This document shows positions 1 to 11,970 of a stretch of DNA of 11,970 nt, one piece after another (the stretch's first letter is position 1; each line of letters begins with the position of its first letter). Origin of the DNA: Nitrospirota bacterium. Its GTDB lineage: Bacteria; UBA2233. The position numbers were made by a program, and so were the translations under genes. The stretch covers positions 1 to 11,970 of the forward strand of contig WOZJ01000040.1 of assembly GCA_011620345.1 (NCBI GenBank), given 5' to 3'. Below the pieces are notes generated by a model, which saw nothing but the letters and a program-made list of their open reading frames with translations, was not told the origin of the DNA and ran no database searches.

Positions 1-21
1 GTCTGCTTGCCCGACTCTGGC

Positions 22-771
22 CTATTCAAGACCTAGGCCGGCATGTTTTATCCGGAGGGCTTCTATGCGCTCAAAGAGGAAGTTTGTCCAGCCTTCGAAC
101 CCATAAAGCGTCTTGGCCGATAATTCAAGGATGCGGATGCCTGGGTTGATTTCTTGCGCCCAAGTCTTGGCCTTGGAGGCATCGAAGGCAAGGTAGGGCA
201 GGAGGTCTGTCTTGCTGACAACGAGAAGCTCTGCCGCCCGGAAGACGAGAGGGTACTTAAGCGGCTTGTCTTCGCCCTCGGTTACGCTCAAAAGGACGAC
301 GTTTACATGCGCGCCCACGTCATAGAGAGAGGGGCAGACCAAATTACCCACGTTCTCGATGAACAAAAGATCGAGCGCCTCGTGAGGGAGGTCTTCAAGG
401 GCCTTTTCGACCATGAACGCATCCAGATGGCAGGCTTGGCCCGTTGTGATCGCCTTGGCGAGCGCCCCTTTGGCCTGGACTCTTTCGGCATCCCTTTGGG
501 TTTCCAGGTCTCCTGCCAACACCCCAATCTTGAGCTTCCCCTGGGTCATTTCGAGCGTTCGCTCGATCAGCGCGGTCTTACCCGACCCTGGCGCGCTCAT
601 CAAATTGATCGCGAGCGTCCCATGCCGGGTAAAATGGCTCCGAACGTGTTCGGCCTGTTTGTCGTTGGCGGCAAGCAAAGAAACGCCGATATTGCGAGAC
701 GTCGCCGAACCGGGCGATTTCTCGCTCGCTGGAATCGGTCCGGGCTCACTGCATCCGCAAGTTGTGCACAT
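22..771 (-). CDS. hypB: HypB, hydrogenase nickel-incorporation GTPase
   Basis: HypB is a cytosolic SIMIBI-class GTPase that, with HypA, supplies nickel to the large subunit of [NiFe] hydrogenase during maturation. The protein has 249 residues. It opens with MCTTCGC, the Cys-rich N-terminal nickel site known from E. coli HypB (C2, C5, C7). The P-loop SAPGSGKT is at residues 59-66. The G-domain metal site is visible as C114-H115 (QACHLDA) and C146 (ENVGNLVCP), with the 32-residue spacing seen in E. coli. SKTD at 186-189 is the guanine-specificity motif. There is no His-rich nickel-storage stretch. I chose the ATG at 769-771 rather than one 20 codons upstream because it starts the conserved motif and has a GAAGGGGG ribosome site before it. 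The stop is TAG at 22-24. The gene is transcribed off the left edge, where other hyp genes would be expected (inference). It is divergent from the M28 peptidase. Confidence 0.96.
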   Translation of the reverse strand: MCTTCGCSEPGPIPASEKSPGSATSRNIGVSLLAANDKQAEHVRSHFTRHGTLAINLMSAPGSGKTALIERTLEMTQGKLKIGVLAGDLETQRDAERVQAKGALAKAITTGQACHLDAFMVEKALEDLPHEALDLLFIENVGNLVCPSLYDVGAHVNVVLLSVTEGEDKPLKYPLVFRAAELLVVSKTDLLPYLAFDASKAKTWAQEINPGIRILELSAKTLYGFEGWTNFLFERIEALRIKHAGLGLE

Positions 772-848
772 CGAAGGCCCCCTTCGTTTGTTTTGGCTGT
801 AATCATCTATACTATAACGTAGGATTGACATTAAATAAGGGGGATCGA
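772..848. promoter_or_regulatory. Divergent intergenic region between hypB and the M28 peptidase
   Basis: These 77 bp separate two head-to-head genes and must hold both start regions. The middle (about 800-838) is AT-rich beside GC-rich coding flanks. It holds overlapping -10-like hexamers: TATACT at 808-813 and TATAAC at 813-818 on the plus strand, and TATAGT (811-816) and TATAGA (806-811) on the minus strand. No convincing -35 boxes pair with them, so the exact promoters are uncertain. The ribosome sites are clear: GGGGG just before the TTG start at 849, and GAAGGGGG before the hypB ATG. Confidence 0.4.
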
Positions 849-2447
849 TTGAACATCTCGAGAAGAAGAGCGCTCCAGGCGCTCGGGTCCGTTCCGCTGG
901 CGCTGGCCTATTCAGGGTCCGTGAAGGGGGTTGGCGCGACCCAGTCCCTAGGCCCTGCCCGTCCCCAGCCTACGGTTCCGCTTGAGGCAATACGGGCGCA
1001 TACCGAAAGGCTCGTCGCCTTCAAACAGAAGCGAGCGGGGTCCGAGGGCCTTTCGGAGGTAAGGGGCTTTCTTAAACAGCAGCTTGAGACCCTAGGCTTC
1101 TCTGTTCAAACCGACGCGTTCCAGTTTTTGGCTTACCGGCCGAAGAGCGACTCCTTAACCATAGAAGGGCGAGATGTTACGCATGAAACGTTTGCGTATT
1201 CAAGCGGGCTTGTGGGGCGTTTTCCAGTACGCCTTCTTGAAGGCACTTCGGACACTTCCCGGTTCCTTAGGGGCGCGATCGCGCTAGCTCCGATCGAGTC
1301 GTTCAATGAGGTTTCTGTCGCCTATCAGCGGGCGATCCATGAGGGATCCGCGGCGATTGTGTTTAGCCACACGGGTTGTCCCGCATACCCGTTTGCTTCG
1401 TCCGTGGGGTTTGCCTTCGACGGCGTTCAAAAAGAAAGTATCCCTGCGCTCAGCATGCCGCTTGACGCAATCGCCCCTTTGCTTGGGCGGCTTGGCAAAG
1501 AGGACGTTTTCGCGCATGTCATGATCGAGCCAGCAACCGAGCCTGCCTTAGGGGAAAACCTTTATGCTTTTAGCCAACAAAATCCAGGGCTTGCGCCTCT
1601 TGTGTTTCTTGCAGCCCATTTCGATACCTGGTTTGAAGGCGCAACCGACGATTGTGCCTCCGTGGCGCTGCTCCTCGAGCTTGCAGGTGCGCTGAAGCGG
1701 GCCTATCCTCAAGCGAACTTCGGGTTCTTGTTTTTGGACGCAGAAGAGGTCGGACTGCTTGGCGCCTACAGGGCGCTCCAGACGCTCGTAATCGAAAACC
1801 GCCTTCCCATCAAGGCTTTTCTCAACCTAGAGCAAGCGGTCGTATCGCCCAAGGGGTTTACATCTTCCACCTTTTCTGCGCCCAGGCTCTTTTTCGATGC
1901 GTTCTCCCAAACGCTCTTTGGCGCCTCCGGCGGCGTTCCCGTCCCCGCATTCCTTAGGCTTGCCTGGTCCGGCGGGGCGTCCCTTTCGAACCTAGTACCT
2001 TTCTACAACGCAGGCGTTCCAAGCCTTACGACGGGACCGATCACCGTGCCTTGGTTCAACCACTCTCAGGCGGATACATTGGACAAGGTAAGCGACGGAG
2101 CGCTCACCGATGCGTTCCGTTTCATGTTCGCCCTGGCCGCTTCGGTCCACGAGGGTGGGTTGGGGCTCGGCGGAGGGGGCCTTTCCGTTCCGGAGGCGCC
2201 GAATATGGTCTTTGATCGAAAAGAATCTGGCTTGGAGGTGCGGATCGTGCCGGCGTTTTTGCCTGGTACGATAGATGCGTTTGTTTTAAATAAAGGCCTT
2301 TTGCCTGTTTATAAGCCCAGGCTCGAACCCCTGGGTAACGGCCGCTACCGGCTGGAGGCGCTGGAACCCTTCGAAGGAAATTCTGACACCTTCTTGTTCG
2401 TTCGCTTCTTGGGGCCGATCCCCGCGGAAGGCTGGCTTAAGCTCTAA
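849..2447 (+). CDS. Exported M28-family zinc metallopeptidase (aminopeptidase-like)
   Basis: This is a 532-residue protein of the M28 di-zinc exopeptidase family, which removes N-terminal residues from peptides. The expected ligands are visible: H257 (AAHFD), bridging D267 (GATDD), the E299-E300 pair (DAEEVGLLGA; general base and ligand), E328 (NLEQ) and H405 (FNHSQADTLDKV). Residues about 130-230 form an insert between the N-terminal part and the catalytic core that resembles a PA domain. About 80 residues follow the last ligand as a C-terminal extension of unknown role. The leader ISRRRALQAL followed by a short apolar stretch looks like a twin-arginine signal, so export is inferred. I chose TTG at 849-851 because the leader begins there and AAGGGGG precedes it by 5 nt; an ATG at 762 would overlap hypB and add 29 unlikely residues. 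The substrate is unknown. Family call is firm, Tat export moderate. Confidence 0.88.
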   Translation: MNISRRRALQALGSVPLALAYSGSVKGVGATQSLGPARPQPTVPLEAIRAHTERLVAFKQKRAGSEGLSEVRGFLKQQLETLGFSVQTDAFQFLAYRPKSDSLTIEGRDVTHETFAYSSGLVGRFPVRLLEGTSDTSRFLRGAIALAPIESFNEVSVAYQRAIHEGSAAIVFSHTGCPAYPFASSVGFAFDGVQKESIPALSMPLDAIAPLLGRLGKEDVFAHVMIEPATEPALGENLYAFSQQNPGLAPLVFLAAHFDTWFEGATDDCASVALLLELAGALKRAYPQANFGFLFLDAEEVGLLGAYRALQTLVIENRLPIKAFLNLEQAVVSPKGFTSSTFSAPRLFFDAFSQTLFGASGGVPVPAFLRLAWSGGASLSNLVPFYNAGVPSLTTGPITVPWFNHSQADTLDKVSDGALTDAFRFMFALAASVHEGGLGLGGGGLSVPEAPNMVFDRKESGLEVRIVPAFLPGTIDAFVLNKGLLPVYKPRLEPLGNGRYRLEALEPFEGNSDTFLFVRFLGPIPAEGWLKL

Positions 2448-2486
2448 TCTCAAAACTTTTGTTTAAAAAAAGTATTGTCGACGGCG

Positions 2487-2514
2487 TGTCGTTTTGGGGT
2501 ATTAAAGGTATAAT
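2487..2514 (+). promoter_or_regulatory. Candidate sigma70-type promoter for the pcm-ptsP operon
   Basis: A perfect TATAAT at 2509-2514 lies in the 120-bp gap between the M28 peptidase and pcm, 53 nt before the pcm ATG. The best-placed upstream hexamer is TGTCGT at 2487-2492 (16-bp spacer), a poor match to TTGACA. A weak -35 may mean the promoter is activator-dependent or that the hexamer occurs by chance in an AT-rich gap. The rest of 2448-2567 shows no gene. Confidence 0.45.
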
Positions 2515-2567
2515 AGGAAAGGCTTTAGGGGTGTTTACCTCAGCGTCGGTGAAGGGGCTTGTAAGGG

Positions 2568-3209
2568 ATGGATTTCGAGAGAGCACGACAGGGCATGGTC
2601 AAAAGCCAGCTCGAGAACCGCGGAATCTCCGACCGAAGGGTTCTCAAGGCCATGCTGGAGGTGCCTCGTCACCTGTTCGTGCCCGCATCCTTGGTCGGCG
2701 AAGCCTATGCAGACCGGCCCCTTCCGATTGGCGAGGAGCAGACAATCTCACAGCCCTATATCGTGGCCTTGAGCCTGGAGCATTTAGATGTTTCACCCGA
2801 ATCCCGCGTTTTCGAGGTTGGGACGGGCTCTGGCTATCAGACGGCGCTTTTGGCCTACCTAGCAAAAGATGTGTATACAATCGAGAGAATCGAAGGGCTG
2901 TTGGAATTGGCCAAGGGTAGGCTGCATGCCCTAGGCATCCAAAACGTGCGCTTTTGTCTGGGCGATGGGTCCAAGGGTTGGGAAGATGCCGCCCCGTTCG
3001 ACAGGATCGTGCTTAGCGCCTGCTCAAAAGAGGTTCCCAAAGCGCTCATAGGTCAGCTTGCCCCGTTGGGCCGGATGGTTCTTCCTTTGGGTCAGGGGCG
3101 GAGCCAGTGGCTGACGCTCGTCACGAAGGGCGCTACGGGAAAGGTTTACGTGAAACCGACTGTCCCTTGTGTGTTCGTTCCCCTTATCGCCGATGAAGGT
3201 GATTCATGA
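2568..3209 (+). CDS. pcm: Pcm, protein-L-isoaspartate O-methyltransferase
   Basis: Pcm uses S-adenosylmethionine to methylate L-isoaspartyl residues in aged proteins, which starts their repair to aspartate. The 213-residue length fits the family. The N-terminus MDFERARQGMVKSQLENRGI, the segment VPRHLFVP and the S-adenosylmethionine-binding glycine loop FEVGTGSGYQTA (about residues 83-94) are all diagnostic, as is GEEQTISQPYIVA before it. ATG 2568 is fixed by an in-frame TAA at 2562-2564 and by the conserved N-terminus. GAAGGGG at 2551-2557 serves as ribosome site at a slightly long spacing of 10 nt. The stop TGA overlaps the start of the next gene (ATGA, 3206-3209), which implies translational coupling with ptsP. 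It is the first gene of the plus-strand operon. Confidence 0.95.
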   Translation: MDFERARQGMVKSQLENRGISDRRVLKAMLEVPRHLFVPASLVGEAYADRPLPIGEEQTISQPYIVALSLEHLDVSPESRVFEVGTGSGYQTALLAYLAKDVYTIERIEGLLELAKGRLHALGIQNVRFCLGDGSKGWEDAAPFDRIVLSACSKEVPKALIGQLAPLGRMVLPLGQGRSQWLTLVTKGATGKVYVKPTVPCVFVPLIADEGDS

Positions 3210-5545
3210 AATCTCCTGAGCTTACCCTTCTTAGCGACATTTCCCAGGTAATTTCCAAGTCTCACGACATTCACCAGACGCTAGACGCGATCGTCGGGCT
3301 CGTCAAAAGGCGCATGGGCGTAGATTGCTGCTCGCTCTACCTCTTAGACCAATCAAGGCGTCAGCTTGTGCTGAAAGCTACAGAGGGGCTGGATAAAGAA
3401 GCAATCGGCAAAGTTCGGATGCGCCCCAAAGAGGGGCTTGTCGGGCTTGTCGCCGAAACAGGTGCGCCCGTGTTCGTCAAGAATGCTTTCGATCATCCGA
3501 AATTCAAGTATTTTCCCCAGACGCGAGAAGAGCGCTTCTCGGCCTTCTTGGGCGTTCCTTTAATTGCAAGGCGCGCCTTGATCGGCGTGCTCGTCGTCCA
3601 GACGAAGGAGGGGCGGGACTTCAGCGAGGAAGAAGTCCAGATGTTCACGACGCTGGCCTCCCAGCTCGGCTCCGTCGTCATGAACGCCGAATTGGTCGAC
3701 TTGCTGTTCGAGCGCTACTTAGAACCCGGCACCGTAGCACAACGAAAGGTAAGCTCTCAGGATGGGCCGAAGGAAGAAAAAGAGCCCCCAAGTAGGCATG
3801 CCGTCCTTAAGGGGATCGCCGCTTCCCAGGGAGTGGGTTTTGGCAGAGCGGCCGTAATTACGCCTCGCTCATTCGAGCACTACCTGCCCGCCCGCCTCAA
3901 CGTCAACCACGAGCCTCAAAGGGAAACGGCAAGGTTCCGGCGGGCCGTCCAAGAAACGTTCAAAGAAGTGTCCGCCATTCAAAAAACGATTGCCGAGACG
4001 CTTTCCCAAAGAGAGGCAGAGCTGTTCCATGCCCCCCTTCTTTTGCTAGAGGATGAGCACATGCTAGGGGCAGTGGAGCAGAAAATTTCAGAAGGCATGC
4101 TCGTCCCAAAGGCGCTCGAGGCCGTGCTCGAGGAGTACCGGCAGGTGTTCGAGAAGATCCCCGACTCTTACCTAAGGGAGCGGTTCTCCGATTTGTCGGA
4201 CATCGCAAGGAGGATTGCGGAGAACTACGCCAAGCGCACGAGGCGCAAGAGGGTTCCAAAAAGAGAGCAGGCGATTTTGGTGTGCGACCCCATCAGTCTC
4301 ATCTCGCTTGCCGACCTCGAGAACCGTTCCGTGGCCGGAATCGTCTCGGGTTCTGGCGGGCTCAGCTCGCATGCAATCATTTTGGCGAAGTCGTTCGAGA
4401 TTCCGGCGGTGATTGACGTCGAGGGGCTACTTTCCGCCGTGCACGACGGTGACGAGCTCATCGTGGACGGCATTCACGGGGTGGTGATCGTAGAGCCCAA
4501 CGAAGAGCAGAAGCAGGAGTACCGTTACACCAAGCGTGTGTATTTGAAAGACCAAAAGGCGCTGCTCCAGCAAGCCTACGCCAAGGCAAGAACGGTGGAC
4601 GGAGTGGAGGTCGACGTCTTGGCAAACGCCGGAGTTGCTGCGGATATGGACTTGGCGATCAAGTTTGGGGCCGACGGGATTGGACTTTTTCGGAGCGAGC
4701 TTTCGTTCATGGATGCCCGCCATTTTCCGGATGAAGAAGAGCAATACGGGCTCTACCAGTACATTGTCCAAAAGATGGCCCCCAAGCCCGTTTGTATCCG
4801 GACGTTCGACATCGGCGGCGACAAAACAATCGCGTTTTTTGACCACAAGAACGAGGCCAACCCTTTTATGGGCTGGCGGGCCATCCGAATTTCGCTTGCC
4901 CTGCCCATGTTCTTCAAGGCACAGCTCTGGGCCATTCTGCGGGCGAGCGCCTTAGGGGACGTCAGGATTCTTTTACCGATGATTTCCAGCCTCGAGGAAG
5001 TTCAGCAGGTGAAGTCCCTTCTTGAAGAGGCCAAGGGTGAGCTTAGGGCCAAAGGAGAACCCTTCAACCCCAAGATTCCATTAGGAATCATGGTCGAAAT
5101 ACCGGCTGCGGCGCTGATGATCGAGGAATTGTTAGGCGCCGTCGATTTTGTCAGTATCGGAACGAACGACCTTATCCAATACTTTTTGGCCGTCGACCGC
5201 AACAACGAGCGCGTGGCCAGCCAGTTCGACCCATACCACCCGGCTGTTTTGAGGGTTATCTACAAGGTGATTAAGGCCTGCAACCGAGCCATAAAGCCCG
5301 TGAGCGTATGCGGGGAAATGGCCGCCGATGCGCTTGCTTGTCAGATTCTAGTCGGGATGGGCGTAAGGGAGGTTTCTGTGGCACCACAGTTTGTGCCAAA
5401 GCTCAAGCTCGCTATTCAACAGGCCTGCGTGAGCGACCTAGCCCCGTTCATACAAGCGCTCCTCAAGACACGTACGGCCATGGACGCTAAGCGTCTAATC
5501 GAGGATAAGTTTGTCAAATTTCCCATTTTGCCGAGAAGGGTGTAG
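3206..5545 (+). CDS. ptsP: GAF-domain PEP-protein phosphotransferase (PtsP / enzyme I of nitrogen-type PTS)
   Basis: This enzyme I paralogue autophosphorylates from phosphoenolpyruvate and passes the phosphate to an HPr/NPr protein, usually in a regulatory PTS branch rather than sugar uptake. The 779 residues divide into a GAF sensor domain (about 1-165; GVPLIARRALIGVLVVQ), a charged linker (about 178-198), the enzyme I N-terminal domain (from about 200; LKGIAASQGVGFGRA), the swivelling phosphohistidine domain with H389 in GGLSSHAIILAK, and the PEP-binding TIM barrel (about 455-770). Barrel catalytic residues are present: R496 (GLFRSE), R532 (RTFDIGGDK) and C702 (SVCGEMA). E. coli PtsP has the same architecture and a similar length. 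All active-site motifs are intact, so it should be functional. The start ATG overlaps the pcm stop, with AGGTGA as ribosome site. No HPr or EIIA partner lies in the window, so the acceptor must be elsewhere. The GAF ligand cannot be told from sequence. Confidence 0.93.
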   Translation: MKSPELTLLSDISQVISKSHDIHQTLDAIVGLVKRRMGVDCCSLYLLDQSRRQLVLKATEGLDKEAIGKVRMRPKEGLVGLVAETGAPVFVKNAFDHPKFKYFPQTREERFSAFLGVPLIARRALIGVLVVQTKEGRDFSEEEVQMFTTLASQLGSVVMNAELVDLLFERYLEPGTVAQRKVSSQDGPKEEKEPPSRHAVLKGIAASQGVGFGRAAVITPRSFEHYLPARLNVNHEPQRETARFRRAVQETFKEVSAIQKTIAETLSQREAELFHAPLLLLEDEHMLGAVEQKISEGMLVPKALEAVLEEYRQVFEKIPDSYLRERFSDLSDIARRIAENYAKRTRRKRVPKREQAILVCDPISLISLADLENRSVAGIVSGSGGLSSHAIILAKSFEIPAVIDVEGLLSAVHDGDELIVDGIHGVVIVEPNEEQKQEYRYTKRVYLKDQKALLQQAYAKARTVDGVEVDVLANAGVAADMDLAIKFGADGIGLFRSELSFMDARHFPDEEEQYGLYQYIVQKMAPKPVCIRTFDIGGDKTIAFFDHKNEANPFMGWRAIRISLALPMFFKAQLWAILRASALGDVRILLPMISSLEEVQQVKSLLEEAKGELRAKGEPFNPKIPLGIMVEIPAAALMIEELLGAVDFVSIGTNDLIQYFLAVDRNNERVASQFDPYHPAVLRVIYKVIKACNRAIKPVSVCGEMAADALACQILVGMGVREVSVAPQFVPKLKLAIQQACVSDLAPFIQALLKTRTAMDAKRLIEDKFVKFPILPRRV

Positions 5546-7283: not shown

Positions 7284-7376
7284 TGGCGGAAGCGTGTGGG
7301 AATCGAACCCACCGTACCTTTATGGGGTACCGCTGGATTTGAAGTCCAGGCAGGCCACCAGGCCCGATCCGCTTCC
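7284..7376 (-). tRNA. selC: tRNA-Sec (UCA anticodon)
   Basis: This is the selenocysteine tRNA, charged with serine by SerRS, converted to Sec by SelA and carried by SelB to UGA. Reading the minus strand: the acceptor begins GGAAGCG and closes with CGCTTCC, discriminator G and an encoded CCA (7284-7286). The D-stem has 6 bp (CGGGCC/GGCCTG, one G-U) with a 4-nt TGGT loop, a feature specific to tRNA-Sec. The anticodon arm is CTGGA-CTTCAAA-TCCAG, with TCA at 7340-7342, and its loop matches the E. coli selC arm. A long variable arm (GTACC/GGTAC) and a T-arm GTGGG-TTCGATT-CCCAC follow. Seven acceptor pairs are canonical; the eighth expected in bacterial tRNA-Sec would be G-A. It lies 74 nt downstream of selB on the same strand. 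Confidence 0.97.
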
Positions 7377-7450: not shown

Positions 7451-9373
7451 TCAGGCTTCCGCGAGCGTTCGTGCATCCCCGACGCGCCGGGTAAACCGAA
7501 CCCGGTCGAAGTACTCCAGAAGCGGAATGACGACCTTACGGCTCGAACCCAGCGCGTCGCGCAACTCACCAACACCCACAGGCCCTTTTTGCCGGATGAG
7601 TTCTTGTATCCTCGTTTTTGCCCGCTCGAGCGTCTCTTTTGGAAGAATGAGGTCTTCTTTTAGCCGGATGAACTCTCCTTGCTCGAGCAAATAGGCGAGC
7701 AGCTCGAACGCTTCGTCCCGGTTCAAGCCGAGACCCTCAAGGGCTTCCTCCCAGCTTGGAGGCTGGAATTGAGCCTTCAAAAGCCGCTCGATCGCAACCT
7801 CGCCCGCCTTGGCAAGCTTGTCCGGAAGCGCGGGCGAAAACCCCTCGAGGGCAACGAACTCGCCTTTGAGTCGGACGGTTCCCCCGCTCTCGAGCGCTTC
7901 GAGCAAAATCCCAAACCCCCTCGGTTCGATTCCCTTTCCGAGCTTTTCCCGAATCAGCTCCCTGGAGATTCCGGCCCTTGCGGGGTGGGCCTTGTGGAAT
8001 GGCGTAAGGAGCTCCACGACCCCTCTTCGGAGCCAATCGAGCGCCGCTCCTCCTACCCACAAGCGCTTGCCATCGAGGCTGAAAGCGAGCGCTTTACCCG
8101 TTTGCTCGAGGCCTTTTAGGGACAAAAGAGCTTGAGGAAGCTGCTCTTGGGGTAGAGCAAGCCTTTGTACGAGTGCCTCTTCGCTCAACAGCTCAAGGTT
8201 CCCCAGGGCGTCCTCGATCAAGTCTTCCAAGGTGCCTTCGAGCTTTTTCCTCAGGCTTTTGGCAAGCTCGGCCTTCTTGGTGCGCGTTTGAGCCCCGGCA
8301 AGCTGGACGACCTCGCCGCCCCCGATCGTCACCATGGGGGAGTACGACCGGATCACGAACCTATCCTTAGGGGCGGCCACGACGGGTGATTCAAGCAAAA
8401 TTCTGGCCAGCCCGCTTTTGCCGGGTTCGAGCGTTTGGTCTTCCAAAAGAACTGCCCTTCCTAGCACCTCGGCCGTGCCCAGGTAAAAGTGTACCCTCTG
8501 GCGTTGTTTGAGCGGCTTGGCTTCTGCAAGAAGGTCGATCGCCACATCAAGCCTTAGGACCGCGTCAAAAGAGCCCGGTGTTACGAGCACGTCTCCCCTT
8601 TTGAGTTCTTCTGTACCGACCCCTGTTAAATTGACGGCCACCCTCTGTCCTGCAAGCGCCCTCTCAACCTTTTGGTCGTGAACCTCTAGGCCTCTTATGC
8701 GCGCCTTGATTCCCTTTGGAAGGATCACGAGCTCGATTCCAGGCTTAAGTGTTCCAGACCAAAGCGTCCCCGTAACGACCGTTCCAAAGCCCTTAAGCGT
8801 GAACACCCTGTCAATCGGCAAGCGGACGGGGCCGCCCTCGGGCTTGGGCGTCGTTTTGGAAGCGAGCGTATCGAGCGCTTCAAGGAGCTCGTCCAGTCCC
8901 TCTCGGGTCTTGGCCGATACGGCGAGGATGGGTGCGTCTTGAAGGAAGGTTCTTTTCAGCGCGCCTCGTAGGTCGTCTTTGACCATACTCAGCCATTCAT
9001 CATCCACAAGGTCTTTCTTTGTAAGGACAACCAGGCCTTTTTGTGTATGCAAGAGGTCTAAAATCGCCAAATGCTCGAGCGTCTGGGGCATGACGCCTTC
9101 GTCCGCCGCGACGACGAGCACGCCTAAGTCCATGCCGGCGGCGCCAGCCAGCATCTGCCGGATGAAGCGCTCGTGGCCGGGCACGTCCACAAGCCCCAGT
9201 ATTTTGCCGGAAGGAAGCTTAAGCGGAGCAAACCCAAGCTCGATCGAGATGCCCCGCTCCTTTTCTTCCTTTAGCCTGTCCGTGTCGATGCCCGTCAGCG
9301 CCTGGACGAGCCAGGTCTTGCCGTGATCGATATGGCCCGCAGTCCCGACGATGACGTAGTCCTCAGCCCCCAT
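7451..9373 (-). CDS. selB: SelB, selenocysteine-specific translation elongation factor
   Basis: SelB is the EF-Tu-like GTPase that binds Sec-tRNA(Sec) and the SECIS hairpin and delivers Sec at UGA. The 640-residue protein starts MGAEDYVIVGTAGHIDHGKT, with the P-loop at residues 13-20; TDRLKEEKERGISIELGFA is the SelB-type switch I, DVPGHERF the G3 motif and TKKD the G4 motif. Beta-barrel domains follow (about 175-345), and the last 280 or so residues have the helical pattern of the C-terminal winged-helix array that reads SECIS, ending TRRVGDARTL. E. coli SelB is 614 residues. I chose ATG 9371-9373 because AAGGAG lies 8 nt upstream and the GTPase fold starts at once; an earlier in-frame ATG (9401-9403) adds ten non-conserved residues. 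The start overlaps the selA stop by 11 nt, so the two are translationally coupled. Confidence 0.97.
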   Translation of the reverse strand: MGAEDYVIVGTAGHIDHGKTWLVQALTGIDTDRLKEEKERGISIELGFAPLKLPSGKILGLVDVPGHERFIRQMLAGAAGMDLGVLVVAADEGVMPQTLEHLAILDLLHTQKGLVVLTKKDLVDDEWLSMVKDDLRGALKRTFLQDAPILAVSAKTREGLDELLEALDTLASKTTPKPEGGPVRLPIDRVFTLKGFGTVVTGTLWSGTLKPGIELVILPKGIKARIRGLEVHDQKVERALAGQRVAVNLTGVGTEELKRGDVLVTPGSFDAVLRLDVAIDLLAEAKPLKQRQRVHFYLGTAEVLGRAVLLEDQTLEPGKSGLARILLESPVVAAPKDRFVIRSYSPMVTIGGGEVVQLAGAQTRTKKAELAKSLRKKLEGTLEDLIEDALGNLELLSEEALVQRLALPQEQLPQALLSLKGLEQTGKALAFSLDGKRLWVGGAALDWLRRGVVELLTPFHKAHPARAGISRELIREKLGKGIEPRGFGILLEALESGGTVRLKGEFVALEGFSPALPDKLAKAGEVAIERLLKAQFQPPSWEEALEGLGLNRDEAFELLAYLLEQGEFIRLKEDLILPKETLERAKTRIQELIRQKGPVGVGELRDALGSSRKVVIPLLEYFDRVRFTRRVGDARTLAEA

Positions 9374-10784
9374 TCTCGCTTCTCCTTCCCAAAACATCGG
9401 CAAGGGCGCTGTAAACGAGGTCTTCTTCTTGGGGCAGGATTGTCCGCACGTCCAAAAGCACTCTTCCCTCTCGCTCTACACCCACGACGGGGGGGTTGGC
9501 CGTACGCAGCGCGGCTCCGAGCTCCTCGGCCTTCATACCAGCTACCTGAAGCCCTATGGCGTAGGAGGGCAGGGAGGCTTGGGGTAGCGCTCCGCCACCC
9601 ACTTTGCCTTCAAGCGGTACTACGTGAATTTCCACGGCGTCGCCTAGCGTTTGCTTGAGGCTCGAGGCAAGCCTCGAGGCCCTAGCTTCGAGCTCCTTCG
9701 GCTTTTGGGAGAGCATCGAAAGGGCTGGGATTTCCCGTATCGCCTTTTGGGGTTCAAGGTAGGACAGAAGCGTGGCTTCGAGCGCTCCAAGAATGAGCTT
9801 GTCCACACGAAGCGCCCGCATAAGCGGGTGCTTGGCCATGGCCTCGATCATCGCCCGCTTCCCGGCTGCAATGCCGGCCTGAGGCCCTCCAAGGAGCTTA
9901 TCTCCGCTGAAGCACACCACGTCCGCCCCGGCCGCCACGATTTCTTGAACGGTCGGCTCGCTTGGAAGGCCTTTGGGGCCAAGCGGAACGAGGCATCCGC
10001 TTCCCAAATCCACGAGCATCAAAAGCCCTCTTTCGTGGGCAAGGGCTGCGAGCTCCTGGGTGGGTACGCTATGGTGAAAGCCAACAATCCGGAAGTTCGA
10101 GGGGTGTACCTCGAGTAGCGCCGCCGTCTCGGGGCCGATCGCGCGTTCGTAGTCTTTTAGGTAGGTTTTGTTCGTCGTGCCGACTTCGACGAGCTTGACG
10201 CCCGCCTGGGCCATGACTTCGGGGATACGGAAAGACCCGCCGATCTCGACGAGCTCGCCCCTCGATATGACCGCTTCTTTGCCGCTGGCTAGGCCAGAGA
10301 GCATCAAAAGGACGGCGGCCGCGTTGTTGTTCACGACAAGCGCCGCTTGGGCGCCCGTAAGGCTTGTCAAGAGAGGTTGGATATGGCTTACGCGCTTGCC
10401 GCGCTTTCCAGATTCAAGTTCGAACTCCAGGTTGCAGTATCCTTGGGCAAGCTCGAAAACCCTTTTGGCCGCGTGCGATGGGAGCGGTGCCCTGCCAAGG
10501 TTTGTGTGCAAAACGACCCCGGTGGCGTTGATGACGCGCTTAAGGTGAAACCCGCTTGCTTCAAGCCTTTGCTCGACCTCTTCGACGAGGCCTTCTAGAT
10601 CGGCCTGGCGGTCCACGCTGTCCGAGCCTAAGTTTTCCCTCAGGCTTTGGAGCGTATCCCGGATGGCCGCGAGCACTAAGGGCCTTGGGTAGCGCTCGAG
10701 CATCGTTTGGACAGCATCGTGCTCCAAAAGCCGGTCGGTCTTGGGGATGTGCCGGGAAAGGCCCGGGTCTGGCGTTTCTCTCAT
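9363..10784 (-). CDS. selA: SelA, L-seryl-tRNA(Sec) selenium transferase
   Basis: SelA is a pyridoxal-phosphate enzyme, a homodecamer in E. coli, that converts Ser-tRNA(Sec) to Sec-tRNA(Sec) using selenophosphate. The 473-residue length matches the family. The N-terminal tRNA-binding part (IPKTDRLLEHDAVQTML) precedes the core signature RVINATGVVLHTNLGRAPL. The PLP lysine is K296 in CFSGDKLLGGPQAGI, nearly the same position as K295 of E. coli. GTTNKTYLKDY and LLEVHPSNFRIVGF are further family motifs. I chose ATG 10782-10784, which overlaps the selD stop as ATGA; longer in-frame extensions run into selD and are not conserved. No strong ribosome site is close (AAAGGAA lies about 15 nt upstream), consistent with coupling to selD translation. 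Confidence 0.97.
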   Translation of the reverse strand: MRETPDPGLSRHIPKTDRLLEHDAVQTMLERYPRPLVLAAIRDTLQSLRENLGSDSVDRQADLEGLVEEVEQRLEASGFHLKRVINATGVVLHTNLGRAPLPSHAAKRVFELAQGYCNLEFELESGKRGKRVSHIQPLLTSLTGAQAALVVNNNAAAVLLMLSGLASGKEAVISRGELVEIGGSFRIPEVMAQAGVKLVEVGTTNKTYLKDYERAIGPETAALLEVHPSNFRIVGFHHSVPTQELAALAHERGLLMLVDLGSGCLVPLGPKGLPSEPTVQEIVAAGADVVCFSGDKLLGGPQAGIAAGKRAMIEAMAKHPLMRALRVDKLILGALEATLLSYLEPQKAIREIPALSMLSQKPKELEARASRLASSLKQTLGDAVEIHVVPLEGKVGGGALPQASLPSYAIGLQVAGMKAEELGAALRTANPPVVGVEREGRVLLDVRTILPQEEDLVYSALADVLGRRSENGG

Positions 10785-11845
10785 GCAACCACCAAGGTTC
10801 CTTTGGGGGCTTCTAGCACTTTCCCGATAAGCCTGGCACTCAAAACCCCCGCTTGATGAAGACCGGAAAGCAGGGCCTCTGCACGGTCTTCGGGCACGCT
10901 GATCAAAAGCCCGCCCGAGGTCTGGGGGTCGGCAAGCAGCCACTTGAGGGGTTCTGGCACTCGGGGCGAAAGGCTCACGGAGCCCTCCTTGAAAGCAAGG
11001 TTCCTCTTTGCCCCTCCTGGATACACGCCTTCTTCTGCAAACTTAAGCGCGAGCGGATCGATCGGGACAGCGTTCGCCTCTATCTTTAAGCAAACCCCCG
11101 AACCCGTCGCCATTTCCAGCGCATGGCCCAAAAGGCCAAAGCCCGTGATGTCCGTGCAGGAGTTCACGCCTATTTTTAGCATGCAGTCTTTCGCCTTGAC
11201 GTTGAGCGCAAGCATGCTCTCAAGCATGGCCTGCATGTCGGCTTCTTTAATCAGCCCGAGCCTGAGGGCCGTGGTGAGAATCCCGCTGCCCAGCGGCTTT
11301 GTTAGGATCACCCTGTCTTTTGGCCTTGCTGCCTTGTTTGTCAGGGTCTTTGCTGGATGAGCCGTGCCGATCACGCAAAGCCCGTACTTCGGCACGCCGT
11401 CTTCGATCGTATGGCCGCCCACCAGCAGCGCTCCCGCCTCTTTAACTTTATCGAACCCGCCTTTCAGAATCGCCTCGAGCACTTCGGTTCCAAGATCCTT
11501 GCAAGGAAACGCCACGACGTTGAGCGCAAGGATGGGATCGCCCCCCATCGCGTAGACATCCGACAGCGCGTTGGCCGCCGTAACCTGGCCGAAGAGGTAT
11601 GGGTCGTCCAAAAGCGGCGGAAAAAAGTCCACCGTGGCGATCAGCGCAAGGTCTTCCCTTAGGCGGTAGACCGCCGCGTCATCGCTCGTTTCCATCCCCA
11701 CGAGCAGTCTAGGATCGATCGGCTTGGGGAAGTGCTCCAGGATGCGGGCCAGGACCCCCGGCCCCACCTTGGAAGCTCAACCCCCGCCGGGTGCGAGCGT
11801 GCTCAGGCGCACTTTCTGACCATCCGTTGGAGTTGTAGGTTTCAT
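10781..11845 (-). CDS. selD: SelD, selenide water dikinase (selenocysteine-containing)
   Basis: SelD makes selenophosphate from selenide and ATP, the selenium donor for SelA. The full protein is 354 residues with Sec at residue 23, encoded by in-frame TGA at 11777-11779. The N-terminus reads VRLSTLAPGGG-Sec-ASK, aligning with the catalytic Cys/Sec loop of SelD (C17 and K20 in E. coli; here Sec23 and K26). Downstream are LLVGMETSDDAAVYRL, the metal/ATP motif, VDFFPPLLDDPYLFGQVTAANALSD, GGHTIEDG, TDITGFGLLGHALEM and DPQTSGGLL, which cover both AIRS domains. An in-frame TGA at 11849-11851 bounds the start, so ATG 11843-11845 is the only sensible one. If TGA is read as stop, only an internal GTG at 11767 remains, giving 328 residues without the catalytic loop. 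The ribosome site is weak (GGA, 6 nt upstream) and an out-of-frame ATG lies 7 nt upstream. It heads the selD-selA-selB order. Confidence 0.95.
11746..11779 (-). promoter_or_regulatory. Sec UGA codon and bacterial SECIS hairpin in selD
   Basis: Starting 13 nt after the UGA (11777-11779), the mRNA can form a hairpin at 11764-11746: GGGCC pairs with GGCCC, and GGG can pair further with CCU, leaving a GGU apical triloop. The apex therefore carries GGUC, like the E. coli fdhF SECIS loop bound by SelB. The loop G-U sits 22-23 nt past UGA, within the range known for bacterial SECIS elements. The stem is stable and encodes part of KVGPGVLAR. Confidence 0.7.
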
Positions 11846-11890: not shown

Positions 11891-11970
11891 CACAGACTTA
11901 GGTTGAAGGCTAGCTGCCGATGTAATACCTTGCGTCCCATTCGTCCCTTTATGCCTTCCTTTCAATAGGC

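Follow-up and report, generated by a model that had tools for sequence, protein, structure and literature searches.

Does the TGA triplet that interrupts the selD reading frame near the end of contig WOZJ01000040.1 encode selenocysteine (Sec) in the very enzyme that makes the Sec precursor, or does it end the gene, and what else could the Sec system of this genome serve? We addressed these questions in the window, i.e., the whole stretch of 11,970 nt analysed (~57% G+C), in the genome to which it belongs (1.80 Mb in 72 contigs, 96.8% complete) and in related genomes. Our reading, to which we assign a probability of about 97%, is that the window encodes a Sec-containing SelD heading a selDABC operon, with the UGA at codon 23 read as Sec via a downstream stem-loop.

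Translated with TGA as Sec (U), selD extends over positions 10781..11845 on the minus strand (coding part 11845-10784, terminal stop TGA 10783-10781) and yields 354 residues, the frame being interrupted by TGA only once. This agrees with the reading frame and coordinates of a preliminary description of this DNA, which had placed the triplet at 11777-11779 within GGG-Sec-ASK. The ATG at 11845-11843 is the first start codon after an in-frame TGA at 11851-11849, and the N-terminal motif between this ATG and codon 23, earlier described as conserved, is also conserved in the genus mate Nitrospirae bacterium UBA2233, the single one compared. The read-through protein scored 364 bits against the TIGR00476 profile (curated cut-off, 125 bits), its residues 13-321 covering model positions 1-310 of 311. 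Alignment with the solved SelD chains 2yye and 3u0o revealed that the Asp motifs of the ATP/metal site are kept (TSDDAAVY, TVDFF, LSDVYAMGG and CTDITGFGLLGH). Family score and active-site alignment together confirm, at the sequence level, that the gene encodes a selenophosphate synthetase (SelD; selenide, water dikinase).

In the same alignment, residue 23 (codon 11777..11779, minus strand) corresponds to the catalytic Cys of both solved chains, as the preliminary description had supposed; it lies in the glycine-rich N-terminal loop (GGG-U23-A-S-K26), with the Lys at +3 kept. Among the 110 related SelD loci that we gathered, the homologous codon is TGA in 76, TGT in 28 and TGC in 6, i.e., each of the 34 non-TGA loci carries a Cys codon at the catalytic position, and nearly all SelD matches found in other genomes by a whole-genome search contain one internal TGA. 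The gene hence shows homology on either side of an in-frame UGA that occupies a conserved Cys/Sec position, the pattern by which selenoprotein genes are recognized. Three of the Cys-type relatives (L010, L011 and L015) lie in open frames of ~745 codons and contain GLGCACK, a CxxC-like motif; by length and motif they may correspond to the fusions of NADH dehydrogenase with SelD that PMC2398784 describes.

The SelD of the genus mate is 94% identical and contains the TGA as well. Between the two genes, codons 1-22 differ by two synonymous changes and one replacement, and codons 24-354 by 35 synonymous changes and 21 replacements. Judged by these changes, both flanks of the TGA look protein-coding, the upstream stretch being short.

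Bacterial SECIS elements have a small apical loop that contains G and lies about 16-37 nt past the UGA. In the window, a SECIS-like stem-loop is predicted directly 3′ of the UGA (11734..11776, minus strand), with an apical stem at ~11764-11746 and the loop GGU (11756-11754) 20 nt from the UGA. The RNA from 11785 to 11725 folds at -38.5 kcal/mol (z = -2.97), and none of 200 shuffled sequences was equally stable; shuffling of codons with the amino-acid content kept gave z = -3.3. The genus mate has exactly the same apical hairpin, a match that says little by itself, as both sequences are nearly identical in that stretch. Across the 110 loci, a SECIS-distance hairpin with G early in its loop was predicted for 58 of the 76 TGA-type genes vs 7 of the 34 Cys-type genes (Fisher p = 5e-8), a contrast inflated by shared ancestry and composition, since the Cys-type set is mostly Bacteroidales and differs in base composition. 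RNAalifold on an ungapped alignment of diverse TGA-type selD genes returned no consensus structure; the case for a SECIS element therefore depends on the folding of individual sequences and on how TGA-type and Cys-type genes differ.

The machinery for Sec insertion is encoded directly downstream of selD on the same strand. First comes selA (9363..10784; L-seryl-tRNA(Sec) selenium transferase; TIGR00474, 609 bits; PF03841), its ATG and the selD stop sharing 4 nt (ATGA). It is followed by selB, the gene for the Sec-specific elongation factor (listed as 7451..9403; TIGR00475, 379 bits; winged-helix domains PF09106 and PF09107), for which an ATG near 9373, overlapping the end of selA, is a more likely start than the listed TTG at 9403. 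The tRNA-Sec gene selC, with anticodon TCA, was located by ARAGORN at 7284..7376 and matched Rfam family RF01852 with 81.3 bits at 7288-7376. By its sequence, selD-selA-selB-selC is an intact operon with selD at its head, documented here in a poorly sampled lineage known from very few genomes; UBA2233 is listed as Candidatus Cutipiota, with two genomes of 1.8-1.89 Mb and ~56% G+C (PMC11382960). The remaining genes of the window are unrelated to this function: they encode HypB, an M28 peptidase, a protein-L-isoaspartate methyltransferase, a GAF/PtsP-type enzyme I, an NPCBM-domain protein and a nitroreductase. The contig apparently ends at position 11970, which leaves 125 nt ahead of selD and the promoter region incompletely seen; a sigma-70 promoter scan upstream of the gene found nothing. 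In this upstream part, only the last ~60 nt clearly resemble the genus mate.

Could the TGA instead be a genuine stop, arisen by nonsense mutation or sequencing error, with a truncated or decaying SelD made from a downstream start? An open frame that would allow this is present: the ORF list contains, exactly as the preliminary description had it, a 328-aa product without the active site (10781-11767, minus strand) that begins at a GTG (11765..11767). The warning attached to it was correct, as standard annotation would lose the active site of selD. However, the same TGA occurs in the separately assembled genus mate, on which ground we reject a nonsense mutation or assembly error; most relatives have TGA at the homologous codon, the codons ahead of it are conserved, and the gene is accompanied by a SECIS-like hairpin and all of the Sec machinery. 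The assembly also lacks another selD: a second, Cys-type gene, which the preliminary description had named as evidence against a Sec-SelD, was not found in the 72 contigs. One candidate, a 350-aa protein without TGA encoded on contig C39, was rejected as a second SelD (31% identity, 32.8 bits) and reads as a ThiL-like paralogue, a name based on inspection and on the ThiL matches given by SelD itself. Conservation thus strongly disfavours a truncated SelD, and we regard this explanation as very improbable. That codon 23 encodes the catalytic Sec of SelD is supported because the position is catalytic, the codon is TGA, selA, selB and tRNA-Sec lie in the operon and the rest of the assembly contains no Cys-type selD.

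Under this Sec-SelD reading, SelB and tRNA-Sec would read the UGA at codon 23 as Sec, guided by the stem-loop that directly follows it. Together with Lys26, the selenol group of Sec23 would help to activate selenide with ATP to selenophosphate, which SelA would use to make Sec-tRNA, and SelD would be one client of its own product. The sequence itself shows the gene, where the codon lies, the hairpin, the complete machinery and the conservation; actual read-through of the UGA, the part of Sec23 in catalysis and any feedback on expression are what we infer from these data. The self-dependence to which the preliminary description drew attention, an enzyme for the Sec precursor that itself needs Sec, is real on paper, yet usual, being predicted for about two thirds of the sampled relatives. 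Its further statement that Sec-SelD is known elsewhere in bacteria and archaea is borne out by two decades of literature, in which both Sec-SelD and the self-dependence have long been described (PMC1794560). Sec in SelD and the resulting loop are textbook biology, and the window gene is a correct but ordinary instance of a common, long-known form.

The question of value beyond SelD itself concerns the other uses of the Sec system in this small genome. The UGA might be recoded mainly for SelD, in a nearly self-serving loop without another selenoprotein or a selenouridine synthase. In line with this, no other selenoprotein emerged from the families that we screened in the window genome (FdhA-type, FlpD, NiFe hydrogenase, HesB, peroxiredoxin, thioredoxin, rhodanese and CCG): FlpD was not found, SelU did not appear above cut-off, and the members found of PF00384, PF00374, PF01521, PF00578, PF00085, PF02754 and PF00581 lack an in-frame TGA. 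These comprise two molybdopterin enzymes, one NiFe hydrogenase (DPCLAC, Cys type), HesB, five AhpC/TSA proteins, thioredoxin, CCG-domain proteins and two rhodaneses. Against such a loop, however, stands the fact that the families searched are a minority of the >110 known selenoprotein families, in an assembly ~97% complete, and that a coding-potential scan for other TGA-interrupted genes, covering ~0.4 Mb of the genome, did not recover selD, its positive control. Furthermore, the genus mate encodes two candidate Sec-rhodaneses (see below). We therefore consider recoding mainly for SelD improbable and SelD as the only selenoprotein of a genome without a selenouridine pathway slightly more so; were the latter true, all of the Sec machinery would work for a single enzyme, the one that supplies it. 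In the published cases of SelD as sole selenoprotein, the species are reported to possess YbbB/SelU (PMC1794560). In its pure form, the self-serving loop is possible but unlikely in the window genome.

A Sec-containing formate dehydrogenase, the usual client, was rejected, as neither molybdopterin protein contains a TGA; one (L112) has Cys in TICSPAS and the other (L113) is closest to DmsA/YnfE. The gene of the latter, a DmsA/YnfE-like oxidoreductase, lies at 442-3282 (minus strand) of its locus, and that of the Cys-type NiFe hydrogenase (L114) at 3-1724 (minus strand), with a membrane protein gene adjoining; together they would be consistent with anaerobic respiration on hydrogen.

The two candidates of the genus mate are paralogous tandem-rhodanese genes, L151 (G001:C58:77000-83500, 2781-4079, minus strand) and L152 (G001:C54:49500-54500, upstream end at 3382, minus strand). 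Both have an in-frame TGA at the catalytic Cys of the first rhodanese domain (ILICAUGIRAL), followed by a hairpin (z = -3.2 and -2.6), and likely encode Sec-rhodaneses. Their proteins, with two rhodanese domains and an N-terminal signal-like segment, are apparently exported, and are related to NF041203 (rhodanese_LYCAU) with a score below cut-off. Sec-rhodaneses of this type were not found in the window genome. Because of these two candidates, the genus probably uses Sec beyond SelD.

Compared with known Sec-containing SelD, the window protein is alike in its TIGR00476 family score, in U at the catalytic position and in the UxxK motif, and likewise its gene has a SECIS-like hairpin downstream of the UGA and its genome one selD. 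It is at most ~55% identical to any SelD gathered from outside the genus; otherwise nothing essential differs. The SelD of E. coli, whose catalytic residue is Cys17, shares the fold family, the active-site surroundings and the Lys three residues on, but has Cys where the window SelD would have Sec, leaving E. coli without the self-dependence. A selDABC cluster is reported in Eubacterium acidaminophilum (Gursinsky et al. 2000, as cited in PMC12013277); this organism belongs to a different phylum, whereas its cluster, judged by name, consists of the same four genes as the operon in the window.
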